A stretch of DNA of 64,000 nt from Verrucomicrobiaceae bacterium (GTDB lineage: Bacteria; Verrucomicrobiota; Verrucomicrobiia; Verrucomicrobiales; Verrucomicrobiaceae): the NCBI GenBank assembly GCA_016795365.1, contig JAEUHN010000017.1, positions 248,001-312,000 on the forward strand, read 5' to 3'. Below, piece by piece: positions 5,744 through 53,431 of the stretch (position 1 is its first letter; each line of letters starts with the position of its first letter). The notes below the pieces were generated by a model. That model was not told where the DNA came from. It saw only the letters and a program-made list of their open reading frames with translations, and did no database searches. Made by a program: the position numbers and the translations under genes.

Positions 5744-5776
5744 TCAACGCGGCAGTCCAGCGGACTCATCGCGCCC

Positions 5777-7806: not shown

Positions 7807-7835
7807 ACCGCACAGGCATCGCGCACCATCGCGCC

Positions 7836-8192: not shown

Positions 8193-8240
8193 CTCCGCCT
8201 CAATTCATCGAGTCCCTTCAACTCAGCCAGTTACCAAGCC

Positions 8241-10325: not shown

Positions 10326-10331
10326 TTCGCG

Positions 10332-10760: not shown

Positions 10761-10766
10761 GGGGTT

Positions 10767-11516: not shown

Positions 11517-11565
11517 CAACGAAAAGCTACGGGCATTGCGCGAGTCTGCCAAGCGGACAAAACAA

Positions 11566-11596
11566 AGCCGCACCCCACGCATGGCGGGGTGCGGCT
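11566..11596 (-). terminator. Rho-independent terminator of the lsrF-like gene
   Basis: A perfect 11-base inverted repeat (AGCCGCACCCC at 11566-11576 and GGGGTGCGGCT at 11586-11596) encloses a 9-base loop. Read on the minus strand it is followed by TTGTTTTG. It lies 20 bases past the stop codon of the minus-strand thiolase gene, which is the expected position. Confidence 0.85.
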
Positions 11597-11616
11597 GAAT
11601 CGTTCGTGCGATGGTA

Positions 11617-29826: not shown

Positions 29827-29841
29827 GTGTTAAGGGAGGTG

Positions 29842-30981: not shown

Positions 30982-31070
30982 AACGCCCGGATGCTAGGTC
31001 CTGGCGTGGATCGAGATAGTCGAATTGAGCGAATAAACTCTTCGAAATAGCCGAAGTAATGGCGCTCGAG

Positions 31071-31568: not shown

Positions 31569-31713
31569 GGGGCCATCGTAGCGGAGGGCTTCATGCCGGT
31601 GCAAGCCTGTTCCAAGGCCACACCACGCACATACTTCGCACTTGACCCGACGAATGGAAACTGGTGCTGTAAGGACCGCCCTTTTCGGCGCGTGAATGAA
31701 GCCCCTTTCCGCC

Positions 31714-34116: not shown

Positions 34117-34230
34117 CGTGTGCCAGCTGGGGCTGATGGTGGCAGGACGAGTGTCTGGAACTCTGTCCGCCCTGAATCGGCGGCAGCGTTGGTGAGCGGT
34201 CGGGTGACGATCGTTCGCTGAAAGTGCGGC

Positions 34231-35412: not shown

Positions 35413-35613
35413 GCAGCGAGTTAGCTGCGCTCTTCCGCCTTTGCAATGGGCGAAGCTACGCTTGCGATAGGGAAGCCTGTGCCGATGGCTGCGCAGGTCG
35501 ATCTGGGCACGCATAGAAGGCTGTAGGGACCGAAAAGATGGCAAACGGTGTCACAAGGTTACGGCATTTCCGTTATACCACGGCGACTCTTCAAAACTCT
35601 CGGTTCGACCACC

Positions 35614-38600: not shown

Positions 38601-39486
38601 GAATGGTTCGCTCGTGGGCACGCTGTCGGATGGCACAGACACGGCCAATGTGAGTGGTGGAAAACTGGCATTCGGAGCGGCGAATCTCGCTTCGAGCTAT
38701 TCAGGTCTCTACAACACGACGGCCGACATTCGATCCGTGTATTCCGCTGACACGTTCCCCCAGGGCAGGGGTTATGTTCAACTCAATGTCTCAGCCCTCG
38801 GCGCTGTGAGCGGAGCGGGCAGGGCGGGGGATGGCACGGCCTACAGTGTTTCATCGGCTATGTGGGCGGACGCCCGGTTCCCTGTTTACGTGCAGATGTA
38901 TGCTGGGCGCGGCAGCATGTCAGGCATTGCGCAGGTGTCATTGGGAGGCACGGCAGCGACGTCGGATGATCGCATCTCGTCCACGTTCTCTTGGTTTAAG
39001 ATGCCTTCGTTGTTGGCGACGGAGCGGCTTTACGCAGCCGGCTTCGATATTCCGGATGTCTCCTGGGTCGGGTCGCGATGGACTGCCACCACGCGCGGAC
39101 AGTTGCCTGCCGGATGGACGATCAAGACGAGCAACGGGAGGATCGCCATCGCACGTGGCAGCACAGAGACCGCCGCGCAGAGTTCGTCACTGACGCAGAA
39201 CTTCACCCTCGCGACGACCGGCGCTGGAACTTTCGACAGCCTTGCCAACGTGTGCTTCATCACGTGCAGCGCAAACCTCGCCACAGGCCTGTGCACCGGC
39301 TCCTTCCGGCTGACCGATCCCGCGACGCCTCCTTACGTTCGCACGGCCTCTTACTATGCCCTCATGATTCCGCACCTGGGCAACACGGCCTACGGTTGGT
39401 TCACCTTACCCAAGTTGCCGCAAAGTGGCGAAACGCTCACTACCTCTCCGGTCCTGGCGGGGCGTGTGGACGTCATCGCGCAGTGA
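35614..39486 (+). CDS. Large secreted protein: ELW/DGT propeller plus Ig-like domains
   Basis: This 1290-residue protein starts at ATG 35614, with a signal peptide ending at GQASAQ. Residues ~80-470 hold at least six repeats of the ELWxSDGTxxGTxxxxDI type, for example ELWVSDGTDAGTVLLKDI and EVWKSDGTTNGTVRVTD, likely a beta-propeller. Residues ~475-880 are I-set/Ig-like domains (QPQSRILGTGSNVTFSVAA, VAEGTPVTFTTAATNATG), then a He_PIG-type unit (LPSGLKYTPATGLISGTP). The last ~370 residues are beta-rich Gly/Ser repeats. No PEP-CTERM or autotransporter barrel was seen. It is probably an adhesive or surface protein. Confidence 0.88.
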   Translation: MKFALSILAAFVGLSLFPGQASAQSFWASRNLTDNGTNSNFVNGNYRSCGGLLFFAGGSSTYTYNNEAWVSNGTFAGTFPLASRNVGSPIAYSPAEFTKVGNLVFFAATDAVHGRELWKCDLTTFATSLVKDIRATSASSSPHSLAECNGKLLFICDADNSTIYGDELWVSDGTDAGTVLLKDIIPGKSDSGVTGAITTVAGIAYFDANAFSGSGSVPWRSDGTADGTYQLVNPGTSSSYPGAFTRYNGATYFFMRTANSGGDYSLWRSTETSAELVKEKVADRLPDVVVIANNLMFFRGYDSANGEEVWKSDGTTNGTVRVTDVGPGTAYGLDGYYGKPSEIVAMGNYVYFVGNDGSTGKQLYRTNGTTTNRVALISNVTTSSKPDPTGLIVFNNTLFFRMVRDGYGLEWFTSDGTSVSAAPAIDLWPGTSSGIDTYLYVYSGEQIVIGNSLFFVGRDPSVRQELWRIGPPLTITSQPQSRILGTGSNVTFSVAATSGTALSYLWKKNGVAIGGATAASYSINNLTLAHVGNYEAQLESEDGTAGSAVARLAVVDRTVVPASVAAGGTITLKVTAAAPSGATLSYQWKRGTTDLANGPTPSTGLVSGAQGPTLTITKASANEVGTYICTVSIGPGLSLETLPAAVSVVSPPTVATEPLSRLVAEGTPVTFTTAATNATGVSYKWFFNNVAIAGATSASYSIASPLITNGGSYRCELRNAAGFVYTQYAYLSVVRFTTATLTVADASTLKMNVTVGAAPAAGVTYLWRLGGVAVSNGVQPSGASISGATTNAITIANIMSAQAGAWTCQITASALTLTPTIGNIMVKYRPVVAKSSAPAALVSGPFTWQLTASNSPTLFTVSGLPSGLKYTPATGLISGTPLVAGAFTIRAAAANDAGTGPAESLSLPISTLDNSRTGTWTVSIPRHRALNGYLGGLATFVVSNAGTYTGSVANGVAPVAVSGRVTAPVGGNPTILQRIVRPGLLDLWLNITLNPTNGSLVGTLSDGTDTANVSGGKLAFGAANLASSYSGLYNTTADIRSVYSADTFPQGRGYVQLNVSALGAVSGAGRAGDGTAYSVSSAMWADARFPVYVQMYAGRGSMSGIAQVSLGGTAATSDDRISSTFSWFKMPSLLATERLYAAGFDIPDVSWVGSRWTATTRGQLPAGWTIKTSNGRIAIARGSTETAAQSSSLTQNFTLATTGAGTFDSLANVCFITCSANLATGLCTGSFRLTDPATPPYVRTASYYALMIPHLGNTAYGWFTLPKLPQSGETLTTSPVLAGRVDVIAQ

Positions 39487-39535
39487 TGAGGTGCCTCGCT
39501 CACCGAAGGCTCCAGCCAAGTCATCTCCCGGACCT

Positions 39536-39551
39536 GGAGAAGTGCTTCTCC
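39536..39551. terminator. Weak hairpin between convergent genes
   Basis: GGAGAA and TTCTCC form a 6-base stem (39536-39541, 39546-39551) with a 4-base loop. It lies between the stop of the large Ig protein and the end of the convergent sigma-factor gene. No T-run follows on either strand, so a terminator role is uncertain. Confidence 0.3.
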
Positions 39552-39608
39552 ATCATTCGCTGACTCAAAGAGAAACATGTCCAGTGAACGGACCACGATG
39601 GTTCTCGA

Positions 39609-40361
39609 TCATGTAGCACGTTCCGCATGATGACGAAGCATCCGCCACAGCTCGCTGATTTCCTCGGCGGTGATGCCGGGATTGGCCAGCGCGGCTTCTT
39701 CAGCAAAAAACCTCTCTGCCTGTGCTCTCAGCGTGCGATTGAAAAACGCCTTCAGCCGCACAGCTGTCGTGCCATGCTTGCTGGCCATCTGTTCCTGCGT
39801 GAGCGCTGGAGCCTCTGGCCATCTAGGCGCCAGCACCAGGGGCAGCAGATCACTCACAAGGGACTCGTTGCTGGTTCCGAGGTAGCGTGCTCGAAGCCGC
39901 ATCTCGGCGGATCTCCAGAGTGACAGTGCGAGGGCCAGGTCCTGAGCAGAGTCTTCGGTGAGATGCCACACATGGGCGATGTGATGGCAGCGCTCCGCGA
40001 AGTCGGTGTCGAACGACACAAACTCATGCTGCCCTCCGCGCTTTCGAGTTCCAGCCTTGGCGCGCTCATTGAGGTCCAGATTCTTGAAGCAGGTCATTAA
40101 CCACGAACTCAGTCGTGAGCCCCGTTCCGGATCAAACTTCGCCAGCAAGTCATCGCGAACCACTTCGACAAAGAAATCTTGGACCCGGTCCTGTGCATCA
40201 TCCACCGACAGCCCCCGCATTCGCGCGAACCCATAGATCGCCGGATAGTAGAGGGTGCAAAACTTGGCCAGGGAGAGCTGGCGTTCGCTTGCATCACCTT
40301 GCTGGATGCACTGGATCAGTGTGTGTGATGTGATGGGGAACAAGCGCGCTGACTCAGTCAT
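39609..40361 (-). CDS. ECF-type RNA polymerase sigma factor
   Basis: This 250-residue protein starts at ATG 40361 (an alternative lies 22 codons upstream). Sigma region 2 is seen in LYYPAIYGFARMRGLSVDDA followed by QDRVQDFFVEVV, and SRLSSWLMTCFKNLDLNERA covers 2.4. The C-terminal LTQEQMASKHGTTAVRLKAF is a region-4-like helix-turn-helix. It diverges from a transmembrane Ser/Thr kinase gene 207 bases away, a pairing known from planctomycete and verrucomicrobial ECF groups. The kinase may control it; no anti-sigma factor is present. Confidence 0.85.
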   Translation of the reverse strand: MTESARLFPITSHTLIQCIQQGDASERQLSLAKFCTLYYPAIYGFARMRGLSVDDAQDRVQDFFVEVVRDDLLAKFDPERGSRLSSWLMTCFKNLDLNERAKAGTRKRGGQHEFVSFDTDFAERCHHIAHVWHLTEDSAQDLALALSLWRSAEMRLRARYLGTSNESLVSDLLPLVLAPRWPEAPALTQEQMASKHGTTAVRLKAFFNRTLRAQAERFFAEEAALANPGITAEEISELWRMLRHHAERAT

Positions 40362-40568
40362 GACCTGTGCTTCTGTCAAAGGTGCGATTCGTCGGCGTGC
40401 AGGAACGCGATGCGATGATGCAAGCATAAGTAGAAATGCCGTCGCCTACCGGATCGGTGTTCGGTGGTGACAGACAAAATCGAAGTGTGCGTGTCGCGAC
40501 AACAAGCACCCAGGTTTCATCGTTGATCAGGACGCCATCTCCATTCATCTCATCGCCCACTCTTTTCG

Positions 40569-43500
40569 ATGCCGCCTCCCTCATCGACATCTCCTGCTCC
40601 CTCCTGGCTCACTGACCTTGGCTGGTCCGATCGGTTCGAACTACTCGAACGCATCGGCTCCGGCGGCATGGGGCAGGTCTGGCGGGCGCGCGAACGCGGC
40701 ACGGACCGCATCGTCGCGCTCAAGACCCTCGATCCCAGCAAGTCTGGCGACGATCATCTGCTCGCCCGGCTGGACATCGAGGCCGCCACCTTGATCAAGC
40801 TGCGCGACGCTGGCCAGCACGAGCACATCGTGCCCATCATCGACTTCAAGGTGAGCGACGCGCACGCCTGCCTTGTGATGGAGTTCATCCCAGGCCTCAA
40901 CCTGCGCAAGTGGTGCGACACCCATCAGCTCAGCCTCACGAAGCGAGTCGAACTCATCACCCAAGTCGCCCGCGCCACCGGCTGGTTCCACGCACTCGAC
41001 GTCATTCATCGCGATCTGAAGCCCGCGAACATCCTCGTCAGCGCCGTTACGCATCAGCCTGTGATCGTCGATTTCAGCATCGCCAAGATCAACGACACGC
41101 TGCCGCTCACTCTCACCAACGAAGCCCTCGGCACAGCTCCCTACATGGCCCCCGAGCAGCTCGACCGCACCCGCGGCGACATCACTCCCGCGACGGATGT
41201 GTATGCCCTCGGCGTCACTTTGTATGAACTGCTCACCCACATCCTGCCACATCCCGGCGAGTTGCCGCAGATCATCCAGCGGCATCAGAACGAAGTGGCC
41301 CCTGCCCGCCCTTCGCTCATCAACAAAGACGTGCCGCGCGACCTGGAGAGCATCTGCCTCAAAGCCCTTTCCCATCGCCCGATCGATCGTTACGCCAGCG
41401 GCACCGAGCTGGCGGATGATCTGGATCACTTCCTTGCCGGAGAACCTGTCACCGCACGACCGCTCTCCACAATGGCACACCTCGTTCGTCAGGCGCAGCG
41501 AAAGCCCGCGCTCACCATCGCGCTGGCTGCATGCCTGCTTCTGGCACTGCTGGCCGGCTGGGGCATTTTGCGCGCGGGGAATGAGCGTCACCAGCGGGAG
41601 ATTGAGGCACGCCTTACCGCCGCCTACCGGCAGGAGGGTTGGACGCGCAGCAGCCTTCAGGCGGCAGAGGCGGAGATCGCGCTCCTGGCTGTCGATGATC
41701 CTGCGTTGGCAGCCCGGCACTCGACTCTGCTGTGTGCAGATGTGGCGGGAGACTTTGAGAACACGTTGCGCCGTGGCGACTTCAAATCATCACAGCTCGA
41801 ATGGCTGCGCGATGCGGCCTTGCCCTGGCTGCGCAGTCAAAAACATCCACAGGCAGCGGCGTTCGATCAACTGCTCGCCGAGCGCCTCGGGCGCTGGGAG
41901 ACACGTGCCCAGATCGCCGCGCCCTTCGACGATCTCCAGGGCCTGTTCCCACGCTCCAGGTTGCAGGTGCGAGACGGGTTGCTTCATACCCGGACTGAAA
42001 CAGGGCTTGCTGCGGACTTGGAGGGCGATGCCCCACAGATCCGCGTGCTGGATGATGCCCGCAGCCCCATCGAGGTATCCATGACCTTCCAGGCAGATGC
42101 CGCCAAGTTTAGGCGGCTGCGTGTTAGCCACCAGTGCCAGTCCCTCCGGCTCGATGTTTATCTTTTCAAGCTGGCACATGCTCCGAGTGCCGTGCGAGCA
42201 CTACTCCCGGATCTATCCAACCTCGATCCAAAAGGCTATGTGCTATTCAGCAGCCGTGACCGCTCCCGAACCTTTGATCAGGCCACATATATCCCTGACA
42301 GCAGCGTGCTAATCCGGGGCTGCACACTTACCACACGCATCGAGGACCGGCGGCTCACGGTCGATCTCGACGGACGTTGGTCCACGAGCATCGAAGATTT
42401 GTTTGCCTTCACATCGGCGGCTGGCAGCAACTCGATGGACCTCTATTGGCCTCCTAGCCTCGGCTTGCGCCAGATGATCGTGCGCACTCGGTCGGCGGGG
42501 GGCGCTGGCCCCATGGAGCAGGCGGATGTGCTCTTTTCCCAGGATGCCTTCCGCGATGCCCAGCGCCTCTACGAGAGCCTGCTCAGCGATCCCGCCTTGA
42601 GTGCCGAGGCCAGCTACAAGCTCGCCCGCTGCCTGGGAAAACAGGGGGATAGCGCCGCAGCCCACTCCCTGTGGGAAAAGATCAGCCAGGGCTCCCCCAG
42701 TGCCTGGCAGCAGCTCAGCACCTATCCGCTCTGGCTTACGGCGGCGAGGACTGGCGGCCCGACCGCTGCCAGGCCCTATCTGGCAAGATTGCCGCAGCGC
42801 GAAGACATTGCCCCTCAGCTCAAGGCCACTATCTCCAGCAAAGATCAAAGTGTCATCCTCAAGGCCTATCGAAGTGTTGGCCATGGCCTCAATGCCCTCC
42901 GACGTGATGTAACGGCACTGAATGAAGCCGCGAAGGCCTTTGCCATCATGGCCATCAGCAGCCCGGAGACAGCTGTGTCTCTGGCTCTGCCTCTGCACTT
43001 TGGCGGACTCGACGACCTGAGCCGTCGAATGCTCAATGACGGTCTGAAGTCTCCGGGCATCTGGACCAAGGATAAAACCTGCCAAGATGTCGCTGGAGTC
43101 GCCTTGGAGCACTGGACACGCATCAGCCGCAGCGAAAAGACGGCAGACCTACGCAGGGCGTTGGCAGGGTGGTCTGAGGCCTATCCCCAAAATCCAACCT
43201 ATCGTGCCATCGCCCAGCAAGAGGACGGCCGTGTGCTGGCCCGAACTGGAAAGCTATCCCAGGCTCTCAATGTTGCCCAGGAGGCTCATGGTAACTCCAA
43301 AGCTGACGCACGTATCCTCACCGCAGGCTGGCTGCTGGAAGGCATGATCCGTCAGGAATTGGGTCAGCCCGCCGAAGCTCAGATCGCCTGGCAGCAAGCC
43401 ACACAGACTGACGTTGATGCCGAGGGCCGCAGCGCCCTGCACCTCACGGACCTCATCCTCTTGCACACGGCCGCCCGCACCTGGACGCGCGAGACCTGCA

Positions 43501-43997
43501 CCCAGGTCATCACAGAGATCATGGGCAGGGGAAAGACGAGCAGCACCGCCAATACCGCCCGCAGCCTTTTCATCTCCCAGTTCATGATCGGTGACGAATT
43601 CATCCGCAGCCTCAACGGCATCGCCGAGAGGCCTCAAGGCCACCAGTTCCTCAAGAATGCCATCTTTCGCCGCATCACCGCGCGTGAAGCGGTCACCCAC
43701 ATCTATCGGTTGATCATGAGCAGCTACTTCGTCAGCACCGCCTTCACCCAGCCCACCGCCGAGCAGGCTGCCCGCGTGGACCAACTCACCGAGCACCTCA
43801 CCGAAGCCATCGCCACCCTCCCCGAAGGCGAGGCCAGCCTGCACCTCTACTTCCAGACCTGGGCCACTGTCCCTGCCGCGCTCGACCCCGCGATGTTCCA
43901 GCCAGATCCGCGCTTCGCCACTCTCAATGCAGAACTGAAATGGCTGCTCGCCCAGCGCTACACGCACCTGGGCAAGTCCTTCATAGCGGACCAATAA
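40569..43997 (+). CDS. Transmembrane Ser/Thr protein kinase with TPR-like sensor region
   Basis: This 1142-residue protein has an N-terminal Hanks-type kinase domain (residues 22-290): glycine loop IGSGGMGQVWRA, lysine K52, catalytic loop H147-R-D-L-K-P-A-N, and APYMAPEQ. The metal-binding motif is D168-F-S instead of DFG. One membrane helix lies at about 314-336. The ~800 residues beyond are predicted extracytoplasmic, first a strand-rich part and then TPR-like helices (AQRLYESLLSDPALSAEASY, AAHSLWEKISQGSPSAWQQL). It is probably a sensor kinase working with the divergent ECF sigma factor. Confidence 0.9.
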   Translation: MPPPSSTSPAPSWLTDLGWSDRFELLERIGSGGMGQVWRARERGTDRIVALKTLDPSKSGDDHLLARLDIEAATLIKLRDAGQHEHIVPIIDFKVSDAHACLVMEFIPGLNLRKWCDTHQLSLTKRVELITQVARATGWFHALDVIHRDLKPANILVSAVTHQPVIVDFSIAKINDTLPLTLTNEALGTAPYMAPEQLDRTRGDITPATDVYALGVTLYELLTHILPHPGELPQIIQRHQNEVAPARPSLINKDVPRDLESICLKALSHRPIDRYASGTELADDLDHFLAGEPVTARPLSTMAHLVRQAQRKPALTIALAACLLLALLAGWGILRAGNERHQREIEARLTAAYRQEGWTRSSLQAAEAEIALLAVDDPALAARHSTLLCADVAGDFENTLRRGDFKSSQLEWLRDAALPWLRSQKHPQAAAFDQLLAERLGRWETRAQIAAPFDDLQGLFPRSRLQVRDGLLHTRTETGLAADLEGDAPQIRVLDDARSPIEVSMTFQADAAKFRRLRVSHQCQSLRLDVYLFKLAHAPSAVRALLPDLSNLDPKGYVLFSSRDRSRTFDQATYIPDSSVLIRGCTLTTRIEDRRLTVDLDGRWSTSIEDLFAFTSAAGSNSMDLYWPPSLGLRQMIVRTRSAGGAGPMEQADVLFSQDAFRDAQRLYESLLSDPALSAEASYKLARCLGKQGDSAAAHSLWEKISQGSPSAWQQLSTYPLWLTAARTGGPTAARPYLARLPQREDIAPQLKATISSKDQSVILKAYRSVGHGLNALRRDVTALNEAAKAFAIMAISSPETAVSLALPLHFGGLDDLSRRMLNDGLKSPGIWTKDKTCQDVAGVALEHWTRISRSEKTADLRRALAGWSEAYPQNPTYRAIAQQEDGRVLARTGKLSQALNVAQEAHGNSKADARILTAGWLLEGMIRQELGQPAEAQIAWQQATQTDVDAEGRSALHLTDLILLHTAARTWTRETCTQVITEIMGRGKTSSTANTARSLFISQFMIGDEFIRSLNGIAERPQGHQFLKNAIFRRITAREAVTHIYRLIMSSYFVSTAFTQPTAEQAARVDQLTEHLTEAIATLPEGEASLHLYFQTWATVPAALDPAMFQPDPRFATLNAELKWLLAQRYTHLGKSFIADQ

Positions 43998-44160
43998 TTG
44001 GAGAACCGATCCGGCTTGCAGAACTATTTTCGCTGCGACTGTTATCGCTGGACATTGAGACTTTGGCCCAAGAGCTGTCGCGCGTGAAAAAACTAAAATT
44101 CGCGTGTCACCGCGAATCTCTATTCCGGTAAGCGGTTGTGTCTTGGCACCCCAATCAAAC

Positions 44161-44808
44161 GTGAGACACTCCCCACTGACCATACTCGCCACGCTTGCAG
44201 CGCTTTTGCTCGTCGGATGCGCGAGCATTCCGCCTCGCCCACTCACTGTCGAGGAGCAACACTTGGTTGGTATTTGGATGGTTAATCAATGGGCAAAAGG
44301 GATTGGGCGCATGCGCGGGGTATATCAGTTCCTACCGAACCGTAGCCTCATTATGCTGGTCCACTCCGGCAGAGGCATGTCACAGACAAGCGTGCAATGG
44401 GAGGCGATAGATGGGCAGCTCCATGTTACAGGCTTTGGCAAGCCTGATGCCTGGCAAGCCTATCGTTTCAGCGAAGATGGCAATACTCTTTACGTCCGCA
44501 ACGATAGCGGCCAGGAAGACACATGGCAGCGCTATTCGCACAATCCCTACCATCCCTTACAGCAGGCGTATGCCCAAATACCGGATCACGGTTGGGGGCG
44601 GGCGGGTGTCTCCGGCCTTGCTGATTTGATGCATGGCGCAATGACTGCGGATGTAGCCATTCACAGACAACGGGCCGCTCTGGGCGATGCTGACTCCCTT
44701 CGCTGGCTCGAAGAGAACGAAGACAGAATACACGCCATGGGAAGCAGCTTAGACCAAAGTCACGAAGACGCTTTGGCACGCGAACGGGGGCGATTCCCCA
44801 TTGATTAA
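44161..44808 (+). CDS. Hypothetical lipoprotein, island gene 1
   Basis: This 215-residue protein starts at GTG 44161, which places a lipoprotein signal (LATLAALLLVGCASIPP) at the very N-terminus; a GTG at 44104 would add 19 residues before it. The body contains VEEQHLVGIWMVNQWAKG and YQFLPNRSLIMLV, a pattern like small lipocalin/META-type beta domains, followed by a helical C-terminal part. No family was recognised. It opens a run of seven same-strand unknown genes. Confidence 0.7.
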   Translation: MRHSPLTILATLAALLLVGCASIPPRPLTVEEQHLVGIWMVNQWAKGIGRMRGVYQFLPNRSLIMLVHSGRGMSQTSVQWEAIDGQLHVTGFGKPDAWQAYRFSEDGNTLYVRNDSGQEDTWQRYSHNPYHPLQQAYAQIPDHGWGRAGVSGLADLMHGAMTADVAIHRQRAALGDADSLRWLEENEDRIHAMGSSLDQSHEDALARERGRFPID

Positions 44809-44841
44809 CAAACTGCCACCGCACTTTCACCCTCATATTCT

Positions 44842-45984
44842 ATGAAACATAACTCATATCTGATCTCGATTCTGCTGCTAACAATCGGGTTAAGCAGTTG
44901 CTACGAAAACGCACCCGACGGACGTCGCGCGCCACCAGCGGAGTGGAGTGGCGTGTGGATTCAAACGGTGACCAATCCCGAACCAGGTAGCGCCAGCTAC
45001 TCTCAACTTGAACCAGTGAATGACCGGATTGCCCGACTAAACACCGTAAGTTGGAATTCAACGCCAGGAAAAGAGACCTATTCGACCTCAGAGGCAGAGG
45101 TATCCGTTTGCGAAATTGACGGGCAGACGGTTTGGTGCCAACGCGCAGTTGGACCAGGGACTGGCGATCACATAGGGCTATATACCTTTGCGATTGCTTG
45201 GAAACACAATATCCAACTGGTTTTGCTCCCTGCACTGCTACCAGAAGCTATAAAGAAAAACGCTAGCCCGGACGAATTACGGGGTGCGCTCGCCGAGTTC
45301 ATACGCAAGCAAAGAGCAGCAGCCTCGAAAGACACAACAGCCTTTGCAAGCAGTGCTGGCTTCTCGTCATATGCGCCGGCTATATCGTCAAAACTTCCTG
45401 CCCCACCTGAGGGGTTGATTGATAAAGCGCGTCTGAGATCGGCTCAGACCTCTCAACTTCCAACCCAAGAGGCAGCAAATGAACTTTTGAGGAAACCCGG
45501 GAAGACGGGCATTAAAGAAATCGATGATCTTGGTAAGCCAGCCGAGCCCAACTCGCCTCGCCCTGCGAAGGGCATCATGGGCGACCTGTTTGCTCCTCAG
45601 GCGAAACCGACTATTAAGGCTTGGCGTGATGCCACTGCCGATGGTGGTTTGCGCTTCTGGCAGGGCGCAATGCGCTCCGGAGACGACATGACAGCGGCAT
45701 TGGCTCTGGTAGCTGGGTCTGAGTTAGTTGGTTATCAAATGCAAGCCATCAAAATCACGCTCCAAAACACCGCGAAAACGCCTGCGGCAGTCAGTGCTTC
45801 ACAACTCCGGGTTAGCAGTGGGGAGGGTGGCCAGAGCTATACGCTAATTGTGCTGGGCTGGATGGTCGGAGCGACACCATCCTTCAATAATTCCATTCAG
45901 GTAAATGCTCAGTCAGAGGTTGAAGTGTTCGGCTACTTCACAGCGCCCAAAGGATTCCAGGGCACTAAGCTCTCTATCGACTGA
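44842..45984 (+). CDS. Hypothetical lipoprotein, island gene 2
   Basis: This 380-residue protein has a lipobox at residue 20 (LLLTIGLSSC). An N-terminal beta region (EWSGVWIQTVTNPEPGSASY) is followed by a helical middle (DELRGALAEFIRKQRAAAS), a Pro-rich linker, and a C-terminal beta domain (GYQMQAIKITLQNTAKTPAA, VEVFGYFTAPKGF) that looks like an FxLYD or Ig-type fold. The codons and base composition look more A/T-rich than in flanking genes. No family was recognised. Confidence 0.7.
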   Translation: MKHNSYLISILLLTIGLSSCYENAPDGRRAPPAEWSGVWIQTVTNPEPGSASYSQLEPVNDRIARLNTVSWNSTPGKETYSTSEAEVSVCEIDGQTVWCQRAVGPGTGDHIGLYTFAIAWKHNIQLVLLPALLPEAIKKNASPDELRGALAEFIRKQRAAASKDTTAFASSAGFSSYAPAISSKLPAPPEGLIDKARLRSAQTSQLPTQEAANELLRKPGKTGIKEIDDLGKPAEPNSPRPAKGIMGDLFAPQAKPTIKAWRDATADGGLRFWQGAMRSGDDMTAALALVAGSELVGYQMQAIKITLQNTAKTPAAVSASQLRVSSGEGGQSYTLIVLGWMVGATPSFNNSIQVNAQSEVEVFGYFTAPKGFQGTKLSID

Positions 45985-46002
45985 TCCAGCCAGCACGCTT
46001 CC

Positions 46003-46464
46003 ATGAAAACTAGCACAACCATCATGTTGGCCGAAACAAAGAACTTGGGTCCGATTGGATTACCCGAACTGCTCATGTTCGGCCTCGGGGCTTTGTTACT
46101 GTGCGGGCTGATCGCCGCTTTTGTCTTATATCTGCTTACACTTCAAAAGGCGCTAAAAGAGTGTCATCCAGACAGCCAGGAAATGGCACCATGGGTCATC
46201 TGGCTGAATCTCATTCCGATAGTCTCGAATGTCACCGTTTTCATCACGACTATCTTGCTGGCAAACTCATTGAAGAACGAATTCGTGAGACGTGGACTGA
46301 AGGTCGATCAGGGGTTTGGGCGCGGGCTTGGAATAGCCACTGGAGTTTCGGCTTTGCTGTCTGTGCTTCCCATCTTGCTGCCTATCTTCCTAGTGTTTTG
46401 GATTCTACACTGGTCTGCCATCAAGCGGGTGCTTGTGGTTTTGAAGTCATCACCAACGGCGTGA
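46003..46464 (+). CDS. Hypothetical three-helix membrane protein, island gene 3
   Basis: This 153-residue protein has three strong hydrophobic helices (LLMFGLGALLLCGLIAAFVL, WVIWLNLIPIVSNVTVFITT, GVSALLSVLPILLPIFLVFW). The short loop between the first two carries KALKECHPDSQEMAPW, which is reminiscent of DUF4328-like proteins, but the match is loose. It starts 18 bases after island gene 2. The function is unknown. Confidence 0.7.
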   Translation: MKTSTTIMLAETKNLGPIGLPELLMFGLGALLLCGLIAAFVLYLLTLQKALKECHPDSQEMAPWVIWLNLIPIVSNVTVFITTILLANSLKNEFVRRGLKVDQGFGRGLGIATGVSALLSVLPILLPIFLVFWILHWSAIKRVLVVLKSSPTA

Positions 46465-46495
46465 GGGAGAGTTAGGACGAGAGCTTCACTTGCCA

Positions 46496-47140
46496 ATGGA
46501 AAACCTGACCCAAAGCTATCAGAACGCCTTTGAGGAGGCACGTCGCGTCATCGCGAATGGGGGCACGCTTGAAGAAGCGGTTAACCGCTTGGTCGAGTTC
46601 GCTAGGAGTGAAGGGTGGACCGAGGAGAAAACGCGAGCATGTGCTGTCGAAGCTCAAAAAGTGCTCCCTTTCTTCATTAGCGCTCATCAACCGAGCGGCG
46701 CAGTCCGCAATCACTATGAAAAACTCGTTCACGAACTCATTAAGCTATGTGAGTCCAACGCCTCGGAATTAGCAATGAAGGAATTCGCTGAGCGGCAGGC
46801 GAATGAAGAATGTTGGTCTGAGTTGGAGAAGAGCGGCTACTTCGCCGCCTGGGAGCAAGTCCTTGTGAGTGTAAGGCGTGCGGTGCGGGAGAAACGGGTG
46901 GCCGCTCTTTCCCTGCGTCCGGCAAAAAAAGCAGAATTTGCATTCATGTCGTTTCTACTGACTGTGCCATTGCTTTTACTGCCTTTGCCTCCAGCAAACA
47001 TCGTTCTGTGGGGCATCGCCGGATGGCAACTCACCCTGAAATGGTGTCGGTTTGTAGCTACACGCAATGCTAAGGAGTTCGAAGACCTCTCGGATTCTGA
47101 CGTGTCTCAGCGTTGGGACAAACTCTGGCTAAAGTTCTAA
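46496..47140 (+). CDS. Hypothetical protein with C-terminal membrane hairpin, island gene 4
   Basis: This 214-residue protein starts at ATG 46496 (a TTG two codons earlier is weaker). About 145 charged, helical residues (QSYQNAFEEARRVIANGG, EKLVHELIKLCESNASELA) are followed by one or two hydrophobic segments (FMSFLLTVPLLLLPLPPANI, VLWGIAGWQL) and a charged tail. It has the look of a membrane-anchored cytoplasmic helical domain. No family was recognised. Confidence 0.65.
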   Translation: MENLTQSYQNAFEEARRVIANGGTLEEAVNRLVEFARSEGWTEEKTRACAVEAQKVLPFFISAHQPSGAVRNHYEKLVHELIKLCESNASELAMKEFAERQANEECWSELEKSGYFAAWEQVLVSVRRAVREKRVAALSLRPAKKAEFAFMSFLLTVPLLLLPLPPANIVLWGIAGWQLTLKWCRFVATRNAKEFEDLSDSDVSQRWDKLWLKF

Positions 47141-47151
47141 AGCAACTGCCA

Positions 47152-47403
47152 ATGGCAAAAGGTCAGCAACAACAAAGAGGCTGCATCGAACGGGTGTTTG
47201 AGGGCATTGGCTGCGTGGTCGGCCTCATCGGAGGGGCGGTTTACGGTTATTTCCAAGACCCCACCAGTCCCGTGATCAACGCCATCCTCTACGGCGGTGT
47301 TTTTGGAATCATGGGTGGAATCATTGGGCGGCTGGCTCCCACATTGATCATTGTCGGCGTCATTGCCTTCATCATTGCCATCATCAAAAAAATTCAGGGG
47401 TAA
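47152..47403 (+). CDS. Small glycine-zipper membrane protein, island gene 5
   Basis: This 83-residue protein starts at ATG 47152, 11 bases past island gene 4; a TTG at 47113 would overlap that gene. Two hydrophobic segments rich in spaced glycines (GCVVGLIGGAVYGYF, ILYGGVFGIMGGIIGRL) are followed by a third helix (TLIIVGVIAFIIAIIKKI). Glycine zippers favour close helix packing in membranes. The function is unknown. Confidence 0.65.
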   Translation: MAKGQQQQRGCIERVFEGIGCVVGLIGGAVYGYFQDPTSPVINAILYGGVFGIMGGIIGRLAPTLIIVGVIAFIIAIIKKIQG

Positions 47404-47426
47404 CGATCCCTTCACATTCAAGCCTT

Positions 47427-47894
47427 ATGACGACTGAAGAACACAGCAAAGAATTGGACCGCAGACATGCAGAACTCCACCACCTGAAAAAGCCTCGACT
47501 CCCAGAAATGGAACCTCGCGTCCCGAGCAAATCTTCATGGGCTGCCGCCCGCGAGGAGATAGAGGCACTCGAGCGAGAACAGGGCCGCCGATTGGCTCAG
47601 CAGGCCGAGAAATGGATCCGGGTCTTCGCGGTGTTCCATGGGGATGAAAGCTCCGAACGATGGACTGCTATCCAGGCGCTCGACAAGGCAGAAGCAGCAC
47701 TCTCCAAAGCAGGTATTCGCTATCAACGTCAGACCGAATCGAGAGACACCGAACGCCTCGTTCCAGATCCAGAACCACCGGGTGGATTCTGCATAGAACT
47801 GGGAAGCTCGACGACCTTGGCTCTTGAGGTCACTGCGGCGGATGAACAACGGGCACTGGAAGTGATTCGCGAGCAGAAGGAGGTTACTGCCTGA
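47427..47894 (+). CDS. Hypothetical soluble protein, island gene 6
   Basis: This 155-residue protein has a charged helical N-terminus (AAAREEIEALEREQGRRLAQ). The C-terminal half (DKAEAALSKAGIRYQRQT, then SSTTLALEVTAADEQRALEV) resembles a DUF2007-like fold, in which a short sequence between two helices is read by position in the family. That resemblance is weak. It starts 23 bases after island gene 5. Confidence 0.6.
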   Translation: MTTEEHSKELDRRHAELHHLKKPRLPEMEPRVPSKSSWAAAREEIEALEREQGRRLAQQAEKWIRVFAVFHGDESSERWTAIQALDKAEAALSKAGIRYQRQTESRDTERLVPDPEPPGGFCIELGSSTTLALEVTAADEQRALEVIREQKEVTA

Positions 47895-47896
47895 GT

Positions 47897-48184
47897 ATGT
47901 CTTCGTCAGTCAATCTCATCGCCATCGAATGGCGACAAGGCTCTTACAGAGTTCTGGGTGAAGTGCCGGTTTCGATCAGCTTCCACAAAGTCCGGGAGAC
48001 GGGACGGATGCATGAAGTGGATCGGAAGATGGCAGCAGACTACAGGGACGATATTGCCATCCTGGATAGATCTGATTTGCTAGCGTTCGCCGATGATCGA
48101 GCCGCCATGGAGGCATACCTGCCGTCCATCACAGCTCAGTTCTTTCTGCTTCATCGCTACGAGTGGGAGTCCGGGTTCGATTGA
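47897..48184 (+). CDS. Hypothetical soluble protein, island gene 7
   Basis: This 95-residue protein starts 2 bases after the stop of island gene 6, so translation is probably coupled. It reads as a small alpha/beta protein (VNLIAIEWRQGSYRVLGE, ending TAQFFLLHRYEWESGF). No known domain was recognised, and it has no signal or membrane segment. Confidence 0.6.
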   Translation: MSSSVNLIAIEWRQGSYRVLGEVPVSISFHKVRETGRMHEVDRKMAADYRDDIAILDRSDLLAFADDRAAMEAYLPSITAQFFLLHRYEWESGFD

Positions 48185-48391
48185 ATGGAATTCATAGCTG
48201 CCCTGGAGTCGCATAATTTGGCTATTGCCCTGGACGAAATAGACTCGCTTCTACTGGTGGAAACAGATCCATGCAGCAATACGTATCGCCGGTATGCGCT
48301 TGATGCATTTAGCCCTATTCGTCATTACCAACAGCGTCTTCGCCGCCGGACCCATCGCCATCGGCTCACGATTGGAGCCTCTGGTCGATAG
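48185..48391 (+). pseudogene. Possible truncated gene at the island's right edge
   Basis: A 68-codon frame begins with ATG directly after the previous stop (TGAATG). Its first ~40 residues look coding (EFIAALESHNLAIALDEIDS), but from about base 48294 it runs out of frame into the next gene and becomes Arg/His-rich. This is the appearance of a gene cut off by recombination. It may equally be a chance frame. Confidence 0.3.
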
Positions 48392-49844
48392 TGCCCTGAT
48401 CGACTCCTTCAGCGGCAAGGCGGAACTCTTGCTCCATCATCCGGTGGCACGGGAGACGGCGATCGTGCATGACGCGCCGTGGGAGGGATCGGGCACGGGG
48501 TATCACAGCGTGTTTAAGGACGGCGACCGCTACCGCATGTATTACAAGGCGTGGCATCTCGATGTGAAGCCGGGCGCGAAGGGCAAGGCCACGTTGAGCA
48601 CCAATGCGCACCCGCTTTACACCTGCTATGCGGAGAGCACGGATGGCATTCATTGGGTGAAGCCGAAGCTGGGCATCGTGGAGTTCCAGGGATCGAAGGA
48701 GAACAACATCGTGCTCGCCTCCGGTGAGTGGCAGGGAGTGAAGATCGACGCGGGTCACATCGCGCTGGCGAAGGACGAGAACCCGAACGCGACTGCGGAC
48801 GCAAAATACAAAGGCTTCGTGCTCAGCGGTGCAACGAAGGGCCTGCTCGCCTTCAAGTCGCCCGATGGCATTCATTGGTCGCCGATGAGTGACAAGCCGG
48901 TGATCACCGATGGGGCGTTTGACTCGCAAAACCTCGCCTTCTGGGACGGCGCGCGTGGTGAGTATCGCGCTTACTGGCGCTACTTCACCGGGGGCGTGAC
49001 CAACGACAAGGAGTGGAAACCGTCAGGCCATCGCGCCATCCGCACGGCCACGTCGAAGGACTTCATCCACTGGGAGAACCAGCGCGATCTGGCCTACACG
49101 GACTCACCTTCGGAGCAGCTCTACACGAACGTGGTGAAGCCGTATCCCGGTGCGCCGCACATCCTCATCGGCTTCCCCACGCGCTATGTCGAACGCACGG
49201 CGTGGAGCGAGTCGATGCGTGCGCTGCCGGAGCGCGAGCACCGTGAGATGCGTGCCAGCATCAACGCGCGCTACGGTCTCGCGATCACCGAGGGACTGCT
49301 CATGACGAGCCGCGATGGCAACACCTTCCATCGCTGGAATGAAGCCTTCCTTCGTCCCGGCCTAGAGCGTCAGGGCACCTGGCACTACGGGCAGCAATAC
49401 ATCGCGTGGCACATCGTGCCAACCAAGGCTGCGCTGGAGGGCGATCCGGATGAGTTCTCGCTGTATGCAGGCGAGAACTACTGGACGGGCACAAGCAGCG
49501 AACTGCGCCGCTACTCGATTCGTCGAGATGGTTTCGTGTCCGTTCACGCACCGATGAGCGGCGGCGAGTTCGTGACCAAGCCCGTCACCTTCAGCGGCAA
49601 GCATCTGGTGCTGAACTTCTCCACCTCCGCCGCTGGCAGTGTGCGTGTGGAGCTTCAGGACGCAGCGGGCAAAGCTGTGAGCGGATTCGCGCTCGACGAT
49701 TGCGAGGAGACCTTCGGCGACTCTCTGAAGCGCACGATCTACTGGAAAGGCGGCAGCGATGTCAGCGCACTCGCGGGCAAGCCGATTCGAGTGCGCTTCG
49801 CGATGAAGGACGCCGATGTCTTCTCGCTTCGGTTCGTTGAGTGA
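48294..49844 (+). CDS. Secreted glycoside-hydrolase-like (five-bladed propeller) protein
   Basis: This 516-residue protein has a signal peptide (LMHLALFVITNSVFAAG). Repeated motifs of the type seen in GH32/43-like propellers are present: SVFKDGDRYRMYYKAWH, YTCYAESTDGIHWVKPKLG, GLLAFKSPDGIHWSPMSD and TSKDFIHWEN. The C-terminal part is a beta-sandwich (LVLNFSTSAAGSVRVELQD). Proteins like this are common in Planctomycetes and Verrucomicrobia beside sulfatases, and most have no measured activity. The acidic catalytic residues cannot be assigned confidently. Confidence 0.75.
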   Translation: MRLMHLALFVITNSVFAAGPIAIGSRLEPLVDSALIDSFSGKAELLLHHPVARETAIVHDAPWEGSGTGYHSVFKDGDRYRMYYKAWHLDVKPGAKGKATLSTNAHPLYTCYAESTDGIHWVKPKLGIVEFQGSKENNIVLASGEWQGVKIDAGHIALAKDENPNATADAKYKGFVLSGATKGLLAFKSPDGIHWSPMSDKPVITDGAFDSQNLAFWDGARGEYRAYWRYFTGGVTNDKEWKPSGHRAIRTATSKDFIHWENQRDLAYTDSPSEQLYTNVVKPYPGAPHILIGFPTRYVERTAWSESMRALPEREHREMRASINARYGLAITEGLLMTSRDGNTFHRWNEAFLRPGLERQGTWHYGQQYIAWHIVPTKAALEGDPDEFSLYAGENYWTGTSSELRRYSIRRDGFVSVHAPMSGGEFVTKPVTFSGKHLVLNFSTSAAGSVRVELQDAAGKAVSGFALDDCEETFGDSLKRTIYWKGGSDVSALAGKPIRVRFAMKDADVFSLRFVE

Positions 49845-49850
49845 GCAGGC

Positions 49851-50516
49851 TCACTTGCCCAGTCCACCGGGCAGCGTCGGCATCTTCATTTCCTGGTAGC
49901 CTTCGGGCTCCACGAAGTCAGCATCGGCGACCGGCTCTTCCTTGGCCGACACCAGTTCGGTGGAACTCAGCTGACCCATCATGGTCATCTCGGACTTCAC
50001 GATCATACCAGGGAAGTCGTGGTAGCTCGGGAACATGGCGGACATCGGATTGCTCATCGACTTGGTGATGCGATCCATGGCCTGGCTCAGCTCTTCAAAC
50101 TTCGGAAAACTCTTCACCACGTAGAACTTGCCCGAGCCCATCTTGCTTTCCCAGGTGTAAACCTCGGTCTCCCACTCGCCGACCTTCACCTTCTCGCCCG
50201 TTGCTTTGGGCTTGGCCGGCGTGTCATTCCCACCTCCAAGAAATTTGTTCGCGAGCCCAGCGGCGGCCTTGATGGAGTCCGCGTTCATCTTCATCACCAT
50301 CTTCTGCTCGTGCATGAACATCTTTGAAGTGCCCTTGGAAACATCCATGAAAACGGTCATCTTCTGACCGATTTCATTGCGGATGTGATCGCCTTTGACC
50401 TTGATGGTCATCTGGCTGTCTTTGCCGAGAGCCTTGGTGTTTTGAATGATCACCCAGTCCGCGCGAAGCGACGGAGCGAGAGCGATGAGGGCAGCGATGG
50501 CGAGTGCGGTTTTCAT
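49851..50516 (-). CDS. DUF4412-type secreted protein
   Basis: This 221-residue protein has a signal peptide ending at LAPSLRAD. The body is beta-rich and Met/Lys-rich, with KGTSKMFMHEQKMVMKMNAD and YTWESKMGSGKFYVVKSFP, which suits the DUF4412 (LolA-like) fold. It lies convergent to the glycoside-hydrolase-like gene with only 6 bases between stops. LolA-like proteins carry lipids or lipoproteins, but function in this family is not established. Confidence 0.75.
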   Translation of the reverse strand: MKTALAIAALIALAPSLRADWVIIQNTKALGKDSQMTIKVKGDHIRNEIGQKMTVFMDVSKGTSKMFMHEQKMVMKMNADSIKAAAGLANKFLGGGNDTPAKPKATGEKVKVGEWETEVYTWESKMGSGKFYVVKSFPKFEELSQAMDRITKSMSNPMSAMFPSYHDFPGMIVKSEMTMMGQLSSTELVSAKEEPVADADFVEPEGYQEMKMPTLPGGLGK

Positions 50517-50538
50517 GGGATGATGGGGTGTAATGAAC

Positions 50539-51015
50539 TCAGCGGCGATGACGGTAAGTCCATGGGGGCGTGGGATTCATACCCGACCAGAGACCTAACT
50601 TCAAACTCCGCGCATAGGCCTCGGCGGCGTGCAGTCGCGGATCGCTGCTGTAATGCGTGTAGTGCCAGGCCATGCCGCGTTCCACCTGGGCGAGGTTGAT
50701 CCAAAAGGTGCCCAGATAAACCTGCGCGACCTTGCGACCGTAGTCGTCCGTCGTGCTGGCGACGACTTTCACCTCACGACCGAACGCCAACTCCGAGAGC
50801 GACTTCTTCGAGGTGGAGCCAAAGGCTTGCTTCGACTCCGGTGCGTCGATGCCTTCCAGTCGAATGCGCACTTGCTTCTGGCCGGAAGTCAGCACTGTGA
50901 GCGAGTCGCCATCACCGATGGCCACCACCTTACCCGTGAAAGTCTCTGCCATCGCCAGCGGCGCTATCATCGCGATGATGAAGCAGAGCAGAGGGAACTG
51001 GCGAGGGCGACGCAT
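50539..51015 (-). CDS. Secreted thermonuclease-family (SNase) nuclease
   Basis: This 158-residue protein starts at ATG 51015 with a signal peptide ending at PLAMAE. Staphylococcal-nuclease landmarks are VVAIGDGDSLTVL, VRIRLEGIDAPESKQAFG (catalytic Arg and Asp), ELAFGREVKV and TTDDYGRKVAQVYLG with the second catalytic Arg. The C-terminal LGLWSGMNPTPPWTYR is common in the family. It is expected to cut extracellular DNA or RNA with calcium. It starts 22 bases upstream of the DUF4412 gene on the same strand. Confidence 0.9.
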   Translation of the reverse strand: MRRPRQFPLLCFIIAMIAPLAMAETFTGKVVAIGDGDSLTVLTSGQKQVRIRLEGIDAPESKQAFGSTSKKSLSELAFGREVKVVASTTDDYGRKVAQVYLGTFWINLAQVERGMAWHYTHYSSDPRLHAAEAYARSLKLGLWSGMNPTPPWTYRHRR

Positions 51016-51117
51016 GAGCAAGTATAGGTCGCGAGGGCTGTCGGATTCAATCACCGAATCGTGACGAGTTGTGTTCGGTCTTGAGCCTGCGGCAAAGACA
51101 GCGTTAACATCCCGACC

Positions 51118-51990
51118 ATGCGCTGGCTCATCACGGCTCTCATCTTCTCAATCTCCATCGCTCGGGCAGAGCTTCCCTTCAGCACCGTCTTCAAAGGCGA
51201 AGACAAGTTCAACAAGCTCGTCGCTCTCGCCAAGCCGAAGGCACGCGACCTGAAGGCGCTGCCCATCGGCGATCGTGTCGTGTGGTTTGGTCAGGCGCTC
51301 GTGGGCACGCCTTACAAAGGCTTCACGCTGGAGATAGACGACCGCGTCGAGGCACCATCGGTGAACCTCGATGGACTCGATTGCTGGACCTTCTTCGAAG
51401 TGTCGCTCGCCTTCGCGCGCATGATGGACCTCGATCCTCCACGCTGGACACCGGCTCAGTTGCTCTACTTCATCGAAGTCGATCGCTACTGGAACGGCAA
51501 GTGCACAGGCTCGTATCTCTCCCGGCTGCATTACCTGGAAGACTGGGCGCGCGACAATGAACGACGCGGCTACGTGAAGGACCTGACGCGTCGCCTGGGT
51601 GCCATGAACGTCAGCAATGCCGCCACGGAGATGACCAACAATGCCAGCGGCTACCGCTACATGAAGAACAGCGCTGAGAACCGCGCAGGCATCGCCAAGT
51701 TGGAAGCCGGATTGCGTGGCCGGCCACTGCCAATGATTCCACTGCGCAACATCGCGTCGATCGAGTCGCAGCTTCGCAACGGCGACATCATCAGCATTGT
51801 CAGCCGCGATGGCAGCGCCTTCGGCACTTCGCATGTCGGGCTCATCCTGATCCAGAACGGCGTGCCGCACTTCATGCATGCCAGTGCACCGCGCAACTAC
51901 GGCAAGGTGGTCATCGACTCACGCCTCAGCGAATACGTCGCACGCTACAAGACGAATGCTGGCATCATGGTTGCGCGTCCGCTGAAGTAA
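51118..51990 (+). CDS. DUF1460-type secreted peptidoglycan amidase-like protein
   Basis: This 290-residue protein has a signal peptide ending near SIARAE. The DUF1460 family (NlpC/P60-like cysteine fold) shows as VNLDGLDCWTFFEVSLAFAR, with the probable catalytic Cys, and GTSHVGLILIQNGVPHFMHA with the catalytic His. Characterised relatives act on muropeptides. It diverges from the thermonuclease and is followed by a very small membrane gene. Confidence 0.85.
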   Translation: MRWLITALIFSISIARAELPFSTVFKGEDKFNKLVALAKPKARDLKALPIGDRVVWFGQALVGTPYKGFTLEIDDRVEAPSVNLDGLDCWTFFEVSLAFARMMDLDPPRWTPAQLLYFIEVDRYWNGKCTGSYLSRLHYLEDWARDNERRGYVKDLTRRLGAMNVSNAATEMTNNASGYRYMKNSAENRAGIAKLEAGLRGRPLPMIPLRNIASIESQLRNGDIISIVSRDGSAFGTSHVGLILIQNGVPHFMHASAPRNYGKVVIDSRLSEYVARYKTNAGIMVARPLK

Positions 51991-51999
51991 CTCCAGGCA

Positions 52000-52137
52000 A
52001 TGCGCTCCATCTTCACAGCGGCGGAGATTTACCTGATCATCGGCGTGATCTTGCTGCTCGCGATCGGTGCTGTGGTGAAGTCCTGCCGCGAAGTGAAAGC
52101 GCCGCCCGGTGTGATCGAGGCGACGCGGAGTGAGTAG
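52000..52137 (+). CDS. 45-residue single-pass membrane protein
   Basis: This short frame begins at ATG 52000, 9 bases after the DUF1460 stop, with CCAGG just upstream. It encodes one strong hydrophobic helix (IYLIIGVILLLAIGAVV) followed by KSCREVKAPPG and a polar end. Its size, position and composition are those of small membrane regulators, but no homologue is recalled. It is probably co-transcribed with the DUF1460 gene. Confidence 0.6.
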   Translation: MRSIFTAAEIYLIIGVILLLAIGAVVKSCREVKAPPGVIEATRSE

Positions 52138-52153
52138 CGTCACAGGTTGAACG

Positions 52154-53431
52154 TCACGGCGTCCACCACGCATCCAGCGCAGCGGTCATCGTTCTGACCA
52201 CATCGGCTTTGTCCGTCGCCAGATTCTTCTCCTCGAAGGGATCAGCGAGCACGTCGTAAAGCTCAGGCTTCGCCTCTTTCTCGGCAGCGCCGGGAACGAT
52301 GACCTTCATATTCCCTTGGAGCATCCAGCGCCAGCGCAGCGAAGTCGCGGGCTCGTCCATGTTCACGAAGTTGTGCGTGAAGCATTCACCCTGGATCACC
52401 TTTCGCGCAGCGACGGCGGCGTCATCGGTGAGATCAACTCCAGGCGTCTTCGGAGCAGCGATGCCTGCGAGCTTCAGCAGCGTAGGGAAGAAATCTAGCG
52501 AGATGACGGGCGTATCCGAAGTCTTTGGCGCGAGCTTGCCCGGCCAGCGCACCATGATCGGCGACCGCAGACCGCCATCGTATTGGCTTTGCTTCGACTT
52601 GTCGGCGTAGCGAGGTGCGTTGGGGTTCTGTATCCAGCCGTTGTCTGAGACATAAGTGATGATGGTGTTCTGCGTGAGGCCTTGCTCATCAAGGTGCTTC
52701 AAGAGGTCGCCGATGGTCTGATCGAACCACTCACACATCGCCCAGTAGCGCGCGACATGCGGACTGTCGGTGAGCTTGGAATACTTCTCGAACAACGCTG
52801 CGGGTGGCGTGTGCGGATCATGCGGCATCATCGGCGCATACCAGACGAAGAAGGGTTTGTCCGCCTTCTTGGATTCCGCGATGAAGTCATAGATCGGCTG
52901 CATGGTCTTGCGTCCAATGTCGAGCCCCTGGTCTCCGTGGCGCCCGCCTTTCGTCATGCCATGCGTGAAGCCACCGTGCTTGAAATCACCCAGCCACCAC
53001 TTGCCTGTTTGCAGAGTGTTGTAGCCGTTCTGCATCAGCAATCGAGGTAGCGTGGGCACGGCCTCGACGAACTGGATCATCTTCTCGCGTCCCTGCTTGA
53101 AGGCTGAACTTTGCTGAAAGCCCTTCGGCTTCATGCCAGCGGGGATCGGCGGGTCATTGCTCGTGATCTTGTGCTGATGCGGATACAGCCCCGTGATGAT
53201 GCTGGCGAGGCTGGGGCAGCACAGACTGCTGGGCACGTAGCCACGAGTAAAGGTGAGCGACTCCTTCGCAAGGCGGTCGATGTTTGGCGTTGCGATCTGC
53301 TTGTGCCCCATGAGGCCGTAGTCGGTCCACGCCTGATCGTCGGAGATGATCATGACAATGTTGGGCTTGTCGGCAGCGAAGGTTGCTAGCGCAAGGCTGG
53401 CCAGCAAGAGGGTGAGCGAGGTGCGGATCAT
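52154..53431 (-). CDS. Secreted sulfatase with non-canonical active-site motif
   Basis: This 425-residue S1-type sulfatase has a signal peptide ending at LATFAAD. Metal-site residues are in MIISDDQAW (D31, D32), and KQIATPNIDRLAKESLTFTR follows. The formylglycine region is C71-C72-P73-S74-L75, where the family consensus has Arg at the last position. Other core segments are intact (FVWYAPMMPHDPHTPP, TYVSDNGWIQNPN, LRSPIMVRWPGKL). A subgroup of marine and planctomycete sulfatases is known with Leu here, so activity is possible. It ends 16 bases from the end of the small membrane gene, convergently. Confidence 0.9.
   Translation of the reverse strand: MIRTSLTLLLASLALATFAADKPNIVMIISDDQAWTDYGLMGHKQIATPNIDRLAKESLTFTRGYVPSSLCCPSLASIITGLYPHQHKITSNDPPIPAGMKPKGFQQSSAFKQGREKMIQFVEAVPTLPRLLMQNGYNTLQTGKWWLGDFKHGGFTHGMTKGGRHGDQGLDIGRKTMQPIYDFIAESKKADKPFFVWYAPMMPHDPHTPPAALFEKYSKLTDSPHVARYWAMCEWFDQTIGDLLKHLDEQGLTQNTIITYVSDNGWIQNPNAPRYADKSKQSQYDGGLRSPIMVRWPGKLAPKTSDTPVISLDFFPTLLKLAGIAAPKTPGVDLTDDAAVAARKVIQGECFTHNFVNMDEPATSLRWRWMLQGNMKVIVPGAAEKEAKPELYDVLADPFEEKNLATDKADVVRTMTAALDAWWTP

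Follow-up and report, generated by a model that had tools for sequence, protein, structure and literature searches.

A promoter-like motif shared by an ECF-like sigma factor gene and a run of seven orphan genes in a Verrucomicrobiaceae genome

What would switch on a set of genes that belong to no recognised family? The question is raised by seven open reading frames (ORFs; g1 to g7, positions 44161–48184) in a 64,000-nucleotide stretch of DNA from a Verrucomicrobiaceae bacterium (assembly GCA_016795365.1; genome 6.74 Mb). This stretch, hereafter the window, comprises bases 248001–312000 of the 450-kb contig JAEUHN010000017.1 (C32). The seven genes follow a divergent pair of genes for a sigma factor resembling the extracytoplasmic function (ECF) type and a Ser/Thr protein kinase. 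Orphan genes seldom offer a clue to the time of their use; here a candidate promoter, a sigma factor and a putative sensor adjoin them. From sequence comparisons, a probability of about 0.55 was assigned to the reading that the locus is a cassette in which a kinase gates an ECF-like sigma factor, which in turn would drive a private target operon in cis (g1 to g7), the cargo being changeable. The regulatory features are:

39609–40427, minus strand: ECF-like sigma factor gene, sigma-70 region 2 (PF04542, E 5.8e-8, over the cut-off)
40447–40472, minus strand: promoter-like TGTCACC-N13-CCGGTA, 19 nt before the sigma ATG
40569–43997, plus strand: Ser/Thr protein kinase gene (PF00069, E 1.7e-38; HRDLKP motif)
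44098–44117, no strand assigned: inverted repeat ATTCGCG-TGTCAC-CGCGAAT (from the sequence; terminator-like scan)
44105–44130, plus strand: promoter-like TGTCACC-N13-CCGGTA, 30 nt before the g1 GTG at 44161

The shared motif was obtained by comparing the 141-bp gap between the sigma and kinase genes with the 163-bp gap between the kinase gene and g1. In the 2.12 Mb of own-genome sequence scanned (31 %, counting a few overlaps between stretches), TGTCACC-N13-CCGGTA occurred exactly twice, before the sigma gene and before g1, correctly oriented at both sites; the looser form TGTCACC-N13-15-CGGTA likewise occurred exactly twice. The fixed motif was recovered in 0/20,000 dinucleotide shuffles of the gap. 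Among 21 sigma/kinase pairs, an exact 7+7 dyad was shared by two (the window pair and L114) versus 0/420 mismatched combinations, and a 6+6 dyad by four (window, L114, L112 and xL042) versus 11/420; the sharing in L114 is trivial, since its sigma gene follows its kinase gene and the compared regions therefore overlap. With these counts, the other pairs do not support repetition of the sigma promoter behind the kinase as a general rule. Matches to sigma-70-type promoters in the region were no commoner than in shuffles, and a scan of a viral collection with the longer form of the motif gave 100 matches, which were taken as chance. Allowing GGGTA added one site (TGTCACC-N13-GGGTA; L156, 6087–6111, minus strand), a possible further target. 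The −35-like TGTCAC before g1 forms the loop of the perfect 7-bp inverted repeat at 44098–44117, which may serve as an operator or mark where the kinase transcript ends.

The same layout was found in G010, a genome of another genus, which carries the nearest relatives of the pair (sigma 64.5 % identical; kinase C-terminal part 33 %), also as divergent genes. The G010 pair adjoins genes looking by eye like F1-ATPase genes, with no trace of the window neighbourhood. TGTCAC-N15-NNGGTA occurred twice in this 19-kb locus, once ahead of the sigma gene and once about 16 nt past the kinase stop in the same direction; it occurred nowhere in 177 kb of other loci or in the scanned own genome. The post-kinase site reads TGTCACC-N14-ACGGTAAGC and resembles TGTCACC-N13-CCGGTAAGC before g1, the spacer being longer at both G010 sites and shorter at both window sites. 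Because its two −10 words differ, G010 had no exact shared 6+6 dyad in the 21-pair test. The genes behind the post-kinase site encode a protein of 286 aa and a membrane protease of the CAAX type (PF02517, E 8e-21). A relative in G008 gave no clear site on a contig that ends before the sigma gene. The repeat of the layout in G010 is the strongest single support for the proposed control by the sigma factor of the genes behind the kinase. A preliminary description of the window had suggested that g1 to g7 could be sigma-controlled; the shared bipartite motif and the G010 layout together lend this support at the level of sequence.

The sigma protein scored under the cut-offs of TIGR02937 and TIGR02989 and matched no region-4 (sigma4) model in Pfam or NCBIfam; its region 2.2 reads DDAQDRVQDFF, with the acidic DAQD kept (by eye). 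The kinase has one transmembrane (TM) segment near residue 316 and a long C-terminal part bearing TPR. This part was matched in 9 of 57 genomes, the own included, and kinase relatives elsewhere occupy other neighbourhoods. The own genome holds 30 matches to the sigma protein, mostly with the sigma gene upstream of a same-strand kinase gene. For the 24 distinct kinase ORFs in stretches around these matches (a kinase fetched twice was counted once), the G+C fraction of the 4 kb behind the kinase was lowest in the window (0.533; others 0.554–0.632, one of them over 885 bp only), and the idea that AT-rich cargo is general among sigma/kinase pairs was rejected on this ground.

In the favoured reading, the membrane kinase, with its large and probably periplasmic C-terminal part, would sense an envelope condition and, by analogy with known kinase/sigma pairs, would switch on the divergently encoded sigma factor. 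The sigma factor would recognise the motif observed before its own gene and before g1, and would thereby amplify itself and transcribe g1 to g7 as one operon. The products may act at the envelope, the likeliest role being that of a complex for its protection or remodelling; this step is the weakest. The sigma/kinase pair would be long adapted to the host lineage, and g1 to g7 would be a younger, foreign-looking cargo behind the target promoter.

Kinase-linked ECFs and ECF41, with its adjacent-only targets, offer precedents (PMC8103513, PMC3426412). In the Hanks-kinase-gated group ECF43, to which EcfK/PknS of Xanthomonas citri and EcfP/PknT of Vibrio parahaemolyticus belong, the kinase is required for sigma activity in the known cases (PMC8103513, PMC13147305), and about 55 % of ECFs with predictable regulons are autoregulated (PMC8103513). 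The locus shares with ECF43 an ECF-like sigma gene adjoining a gene for a membrane Ser/Thr (Hanks-type) kinase. It differs in that the two genes are divergent, that the candidate target genes, probably for envelope proteins, lie in the same variable block, and that the sigma factor keeps DAQD in region 2.2 where ECF43 has an uncharged motif of the QTTA/STTA type. ECF41 acts at TGTCACA-n16-CGTC before adjacent genes, its only detected targets (PMC3426412). The −35 word is nearly equal here (TGTCACC, differing in the last base), and in both cases the motif precedes the sigma gene as well as a target gene nearby, a putative one here; the −10 word is CCGGTA instead of CGTC, no ECF41 C-terminal extension domain was recognised with Pfam or NCBIfam, a kinase is present, and the cargo is seven orphan genes instead of a COE gene. 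The best named lineage-specific model was TIGR02989 (Rhodopirellula/Verrucomicrobium sigma-70; E 1.9e-6), of which the sigma factor is not a member by score (27.9 bits versus a cut-off of 124.55). In the literature covered, from which most subscription papers were absent, no paper was found that describes a Verrucomicrobial cassette of this type, in which a target promoter follows the kinase of a sigma/kinase pair.

Several points weigh against the proposed sigma control. The motif was picked among many dyads: any shared 6+6 dyad (spacer 12–19) appeared in 158/20,000 shuffles and in 63/5530 control pieces of the contig. About 4.6 Mb of the own genome lies outside the motif scan, and the motif support comes from two genomes only. 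The G010 cargo is unrelated to g1 to g7, for which there are no homologs for selection analysis and no family pointing to a function. Finally, since DAQD is kept, the phosphothreonine mechanism of ECF43 is not transferable to this sigma factor.

More tentatively, divergent sigma/kinase pairs of this type could be portable switches that carry a docking promoter behind the kinase gene, travel from site to site and from lineage to lineage, and acquire unrelated gene sets, even newly arisen ones; the seven orphan envelope genes here and the 286-aa protein with the CAAX-type intramembrane protease in G010 would be examples. With a candidate switch attached to the orphan operon, the hypothesis of a sigma-driven envelope system is directly testable. 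If others among the 30 sigma matches of the genome carry private cis targets, functions would become predictable from DNA alone.

The putative cargo consists of seven co-directional genes at intervals of 33, 18, 25, 11, 23 and 2 nt:

44161–44808, plus strand: g1, lipoprotein, 215 aa, start GTG 44161; no relatives found
44842–45984, plus strand: g2, lipoprotein, 380 aa, C-terminus weakly DUF4352-like
46003–46464, plus strand: g3, four-TM-type membrane protein (about four hydrophobic segments)
46490–47140, plus strand: g4, soluble N-terminus and C-terminal membrane hairpin; the start may instead be ATG 46496
47152–47403, plus strand: g5, small, glycine-rich, two TM segments
47427–47894, plus strand: g6, soluble, 155 aa
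47897–48184, plus strand: g7, soluble, 95 aa

The preliminary description had seen a same-direction run with short gaps, composed of two lipoproteins, three membrane proteins and two soluble proteins without a recognised family, and all of this was confirmed: lipoboxes were found by eye in g1 (LVGC) and g2 (LSSC), and hydropathy gave g3, g4 and g5 as hydrophobic and g6 and g7 as soluble. No score over a curated cut-off was obtained for any of the seven with Pfam or NCBIfam, PHROGs gave no match of weight and PADLOC none for any gene. The match of g2 to DUF4352 (E 0.0034) was under the cut-off. The likeness of g3 to DUF4328 holds only by way of its relatives (19.7 and 19.3 bits versus a cut-off of 27.2; E 7e-4), as g3 itself had no match; no paper on DUF4328 was found. 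The likeness of g6 to DUF2007 was not supported, Pfam giving no match; a putative antitoxin model was matched weakly (E 0.018), far under its cut-off. g2 and g6 had no sequence match in PDB. Models of g1 and g7 built from single sequences reached mean predicted local distance difference test (pLDDT) values of 51 and 56, gave no PDB matches at E ≤ 0.001, and were not used. No RNA families were found. A membrane complex is conceivable given the joint occurrence of two lipoproteins with three membrane proteins in a single operon-like run, and a function in the cell envelope may be supposed.

Relatives of the seven genes were sought in even phylum samples, each including the own genome, with g1, g3, g4, g6 and g7 as queries. 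g3 was matched in 4 of 337 genomes, the own and three from other families (37–39 % identity), and the other six genes were not near these relatives; clear relatives are known only for g3. Searches of 56 related genomes were negative for g2, g4 and g7, as were two scans of genome collections for g2 and g4; in the phylum samples, g1 and g7 were each found in 1/249 genomes, the own. g4 was found in 2/249 (own and G240, E 9e-4) and g6 in 2/337 (own and G267, E 7e-4, with internal stops); the G240 and G267 matches were treated as chance. With g5 not among the queries, no tested genome besides the own held two or more of the seven genes, and the co-occurrence test fails because relatives are too few and the gene set was seen once. 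Plasmid tblastn with g1, g2, g3, g4, g6 and g7, a comparison of phage DNA with 43998–48293, and a search of viral contigs for g1, g2, g4, g6 and the sigma protein all gave no match. A viral match of g7 (L056) was ascribed to chance, as it lies at the end of a contig, on the strand opposite a phage gene. With no weighty match in PHROGs, plasmids, phage DNA or viral contigs, a phage or plasmid origin was rejected; integron cassettes were rejected by reasoning from gap lengths alone, since 2–33 nt are too short for recombination sites.

The seven genes proved to be part of a larger variable block, so that the island boundary of 44161–48184 given earlier was wrong; the block starts at 39,487 and takes in the sigma/kinase pair:

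39487–48293: whole variable block, about 8.8 kb, missing in G001, where 60 bp lie between the flanking genes
48185–48293, plus strand: start of an eighth ORF directly after g7, with atypical codons, cut at the right junction and reading out of frame into the next gene

In the searched sets the genus was represented by one further genome, G001, which is 87 % complete. Its contig C65 aligns to the window at 29116–34110, 34240–39487 and 48339–52312 with 84–86 % identity, and the last two pieces adjoin each other on C65. There the stop of a long ELWxxDGT/Ig-like gene is followed by about 60 bp and then by the counterpart of the window gene starting at 48294, so that this site lacks the sigma gene, the kinase gene and every one of g1 to g7. 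Searches of G001 as a whole also turned up no kinase C-terminal part and no g2, g4 or g7. The block contains no integrase or transposase gene, and its ends show no convincing direct repeat or target duplication and no tRNA (nearest at 28648). A second, small difference from G001 lies at 34110–34240, where G001 has an extra short-chain dehydrogenase-like gene without window counterpart (L035, 5088–5894, within 5071–5913). A perfect 16-nt inverted match joins the kinase gene (42024–42039) and g4 (47005–47020), for which a rough estimate gives about 0.01 chance occurrences in 9 kb.

Inside the block only g1 to g7 look foreign, whereas the codon usage of the sigma and kinase genes is native. Codon adaptation index percentiles against 189 reference genes were 0.02, 0.02, 0.00, 0.02, 0.04, 0.04 and 0.04 for g1 to g7, 0.49 for the kinase and 0.16 for the sigma gene. 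The island has a G+C content of 53.5 % versus 59.6 % for the contig (z −2.5; third-lowest separate 4-kb spot there), and its tetranucleotide distance ranks 16/447. The earlier impression of A/T-richer codons was borne out. The ends, described as abrupt, agree with the change-point fit, which placed the edges at 43,973 (kinase stop) and 48,340 (synteny break). A shift of this size is ordinary, being reached in 10/53 control windows (one of which holds the island), and the position of the edges consequently carries more weight than the size.

Synteny does not tell gain here from loss in G001, since the order of the flanking genes is conserved only inside the genus; in L017–L034 the flanking genes do not lie beside the ortholog. 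The suggestion that the island was acquired is supported by the empty G001 site and the atypical codons, with deletion in G001 as the alternative. An ancestral block deleted in G001 is possible though unlikely: the open polarity and the native codons of the sigma and kinase genes would suit it, and the foreign codon usage of g1 to g7, the other neighbourhoods of the kinase relatives and the sparse matches to the kinase C-terminal part argue against it. Rather doubtful is an islet of orphan ORFs (ORFans), a plasmid or phage-like remnant beside the pair, for which position and motif would be incidental and the genes perhaps transient and without benefit. The near lack of detectable relatives, the want of any family, the atypical codons and the truncated eighth ORF at the edge fit such an islet, as does a survey of 119 genomes that located 39 % of ORFans within clusters of atypical genes (Cortez et al. 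2009, PMC2718499). g1 to g7 share with these clusters the short ORFans, a run of atypical composition and a lineage-variable place; they differ in having no integrative-element gene and a linked regulator apparently in control. The islet sits poorly with a promoter motif that is shared and repeated in G010, with the negative phage, plasmid, PHROGs and PADLOC searches, and with seven intact ORFs.

Read-through from the kinase gene as one long operon, with no promoter of its own for g1 to g7, seems improbable, as the promoter-like motif 30 nt before g1 and the sharp break in codons and G+C at the kinase stop outweigh the common strand, the 163-bp gap and the ordinary frequency of sigma-70-type matches. 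A defence or toxin/immunity cluster is very improbable. Small variable genes in a variable block and the weak antitoxin-model match of g6 would be in keeping with it, against which stand the lipoprotein and membrane make-up, the negative PADLOC search and the lack of any family of nucleases, pore-formers or immunity proteins.

The stretch of the contig richest in A+T lies just outside the window (L070, about 5250–11900; contig 317–324 kb) and holds genes resembling those for polysaccharide export and chain-length proteins, named by eye.

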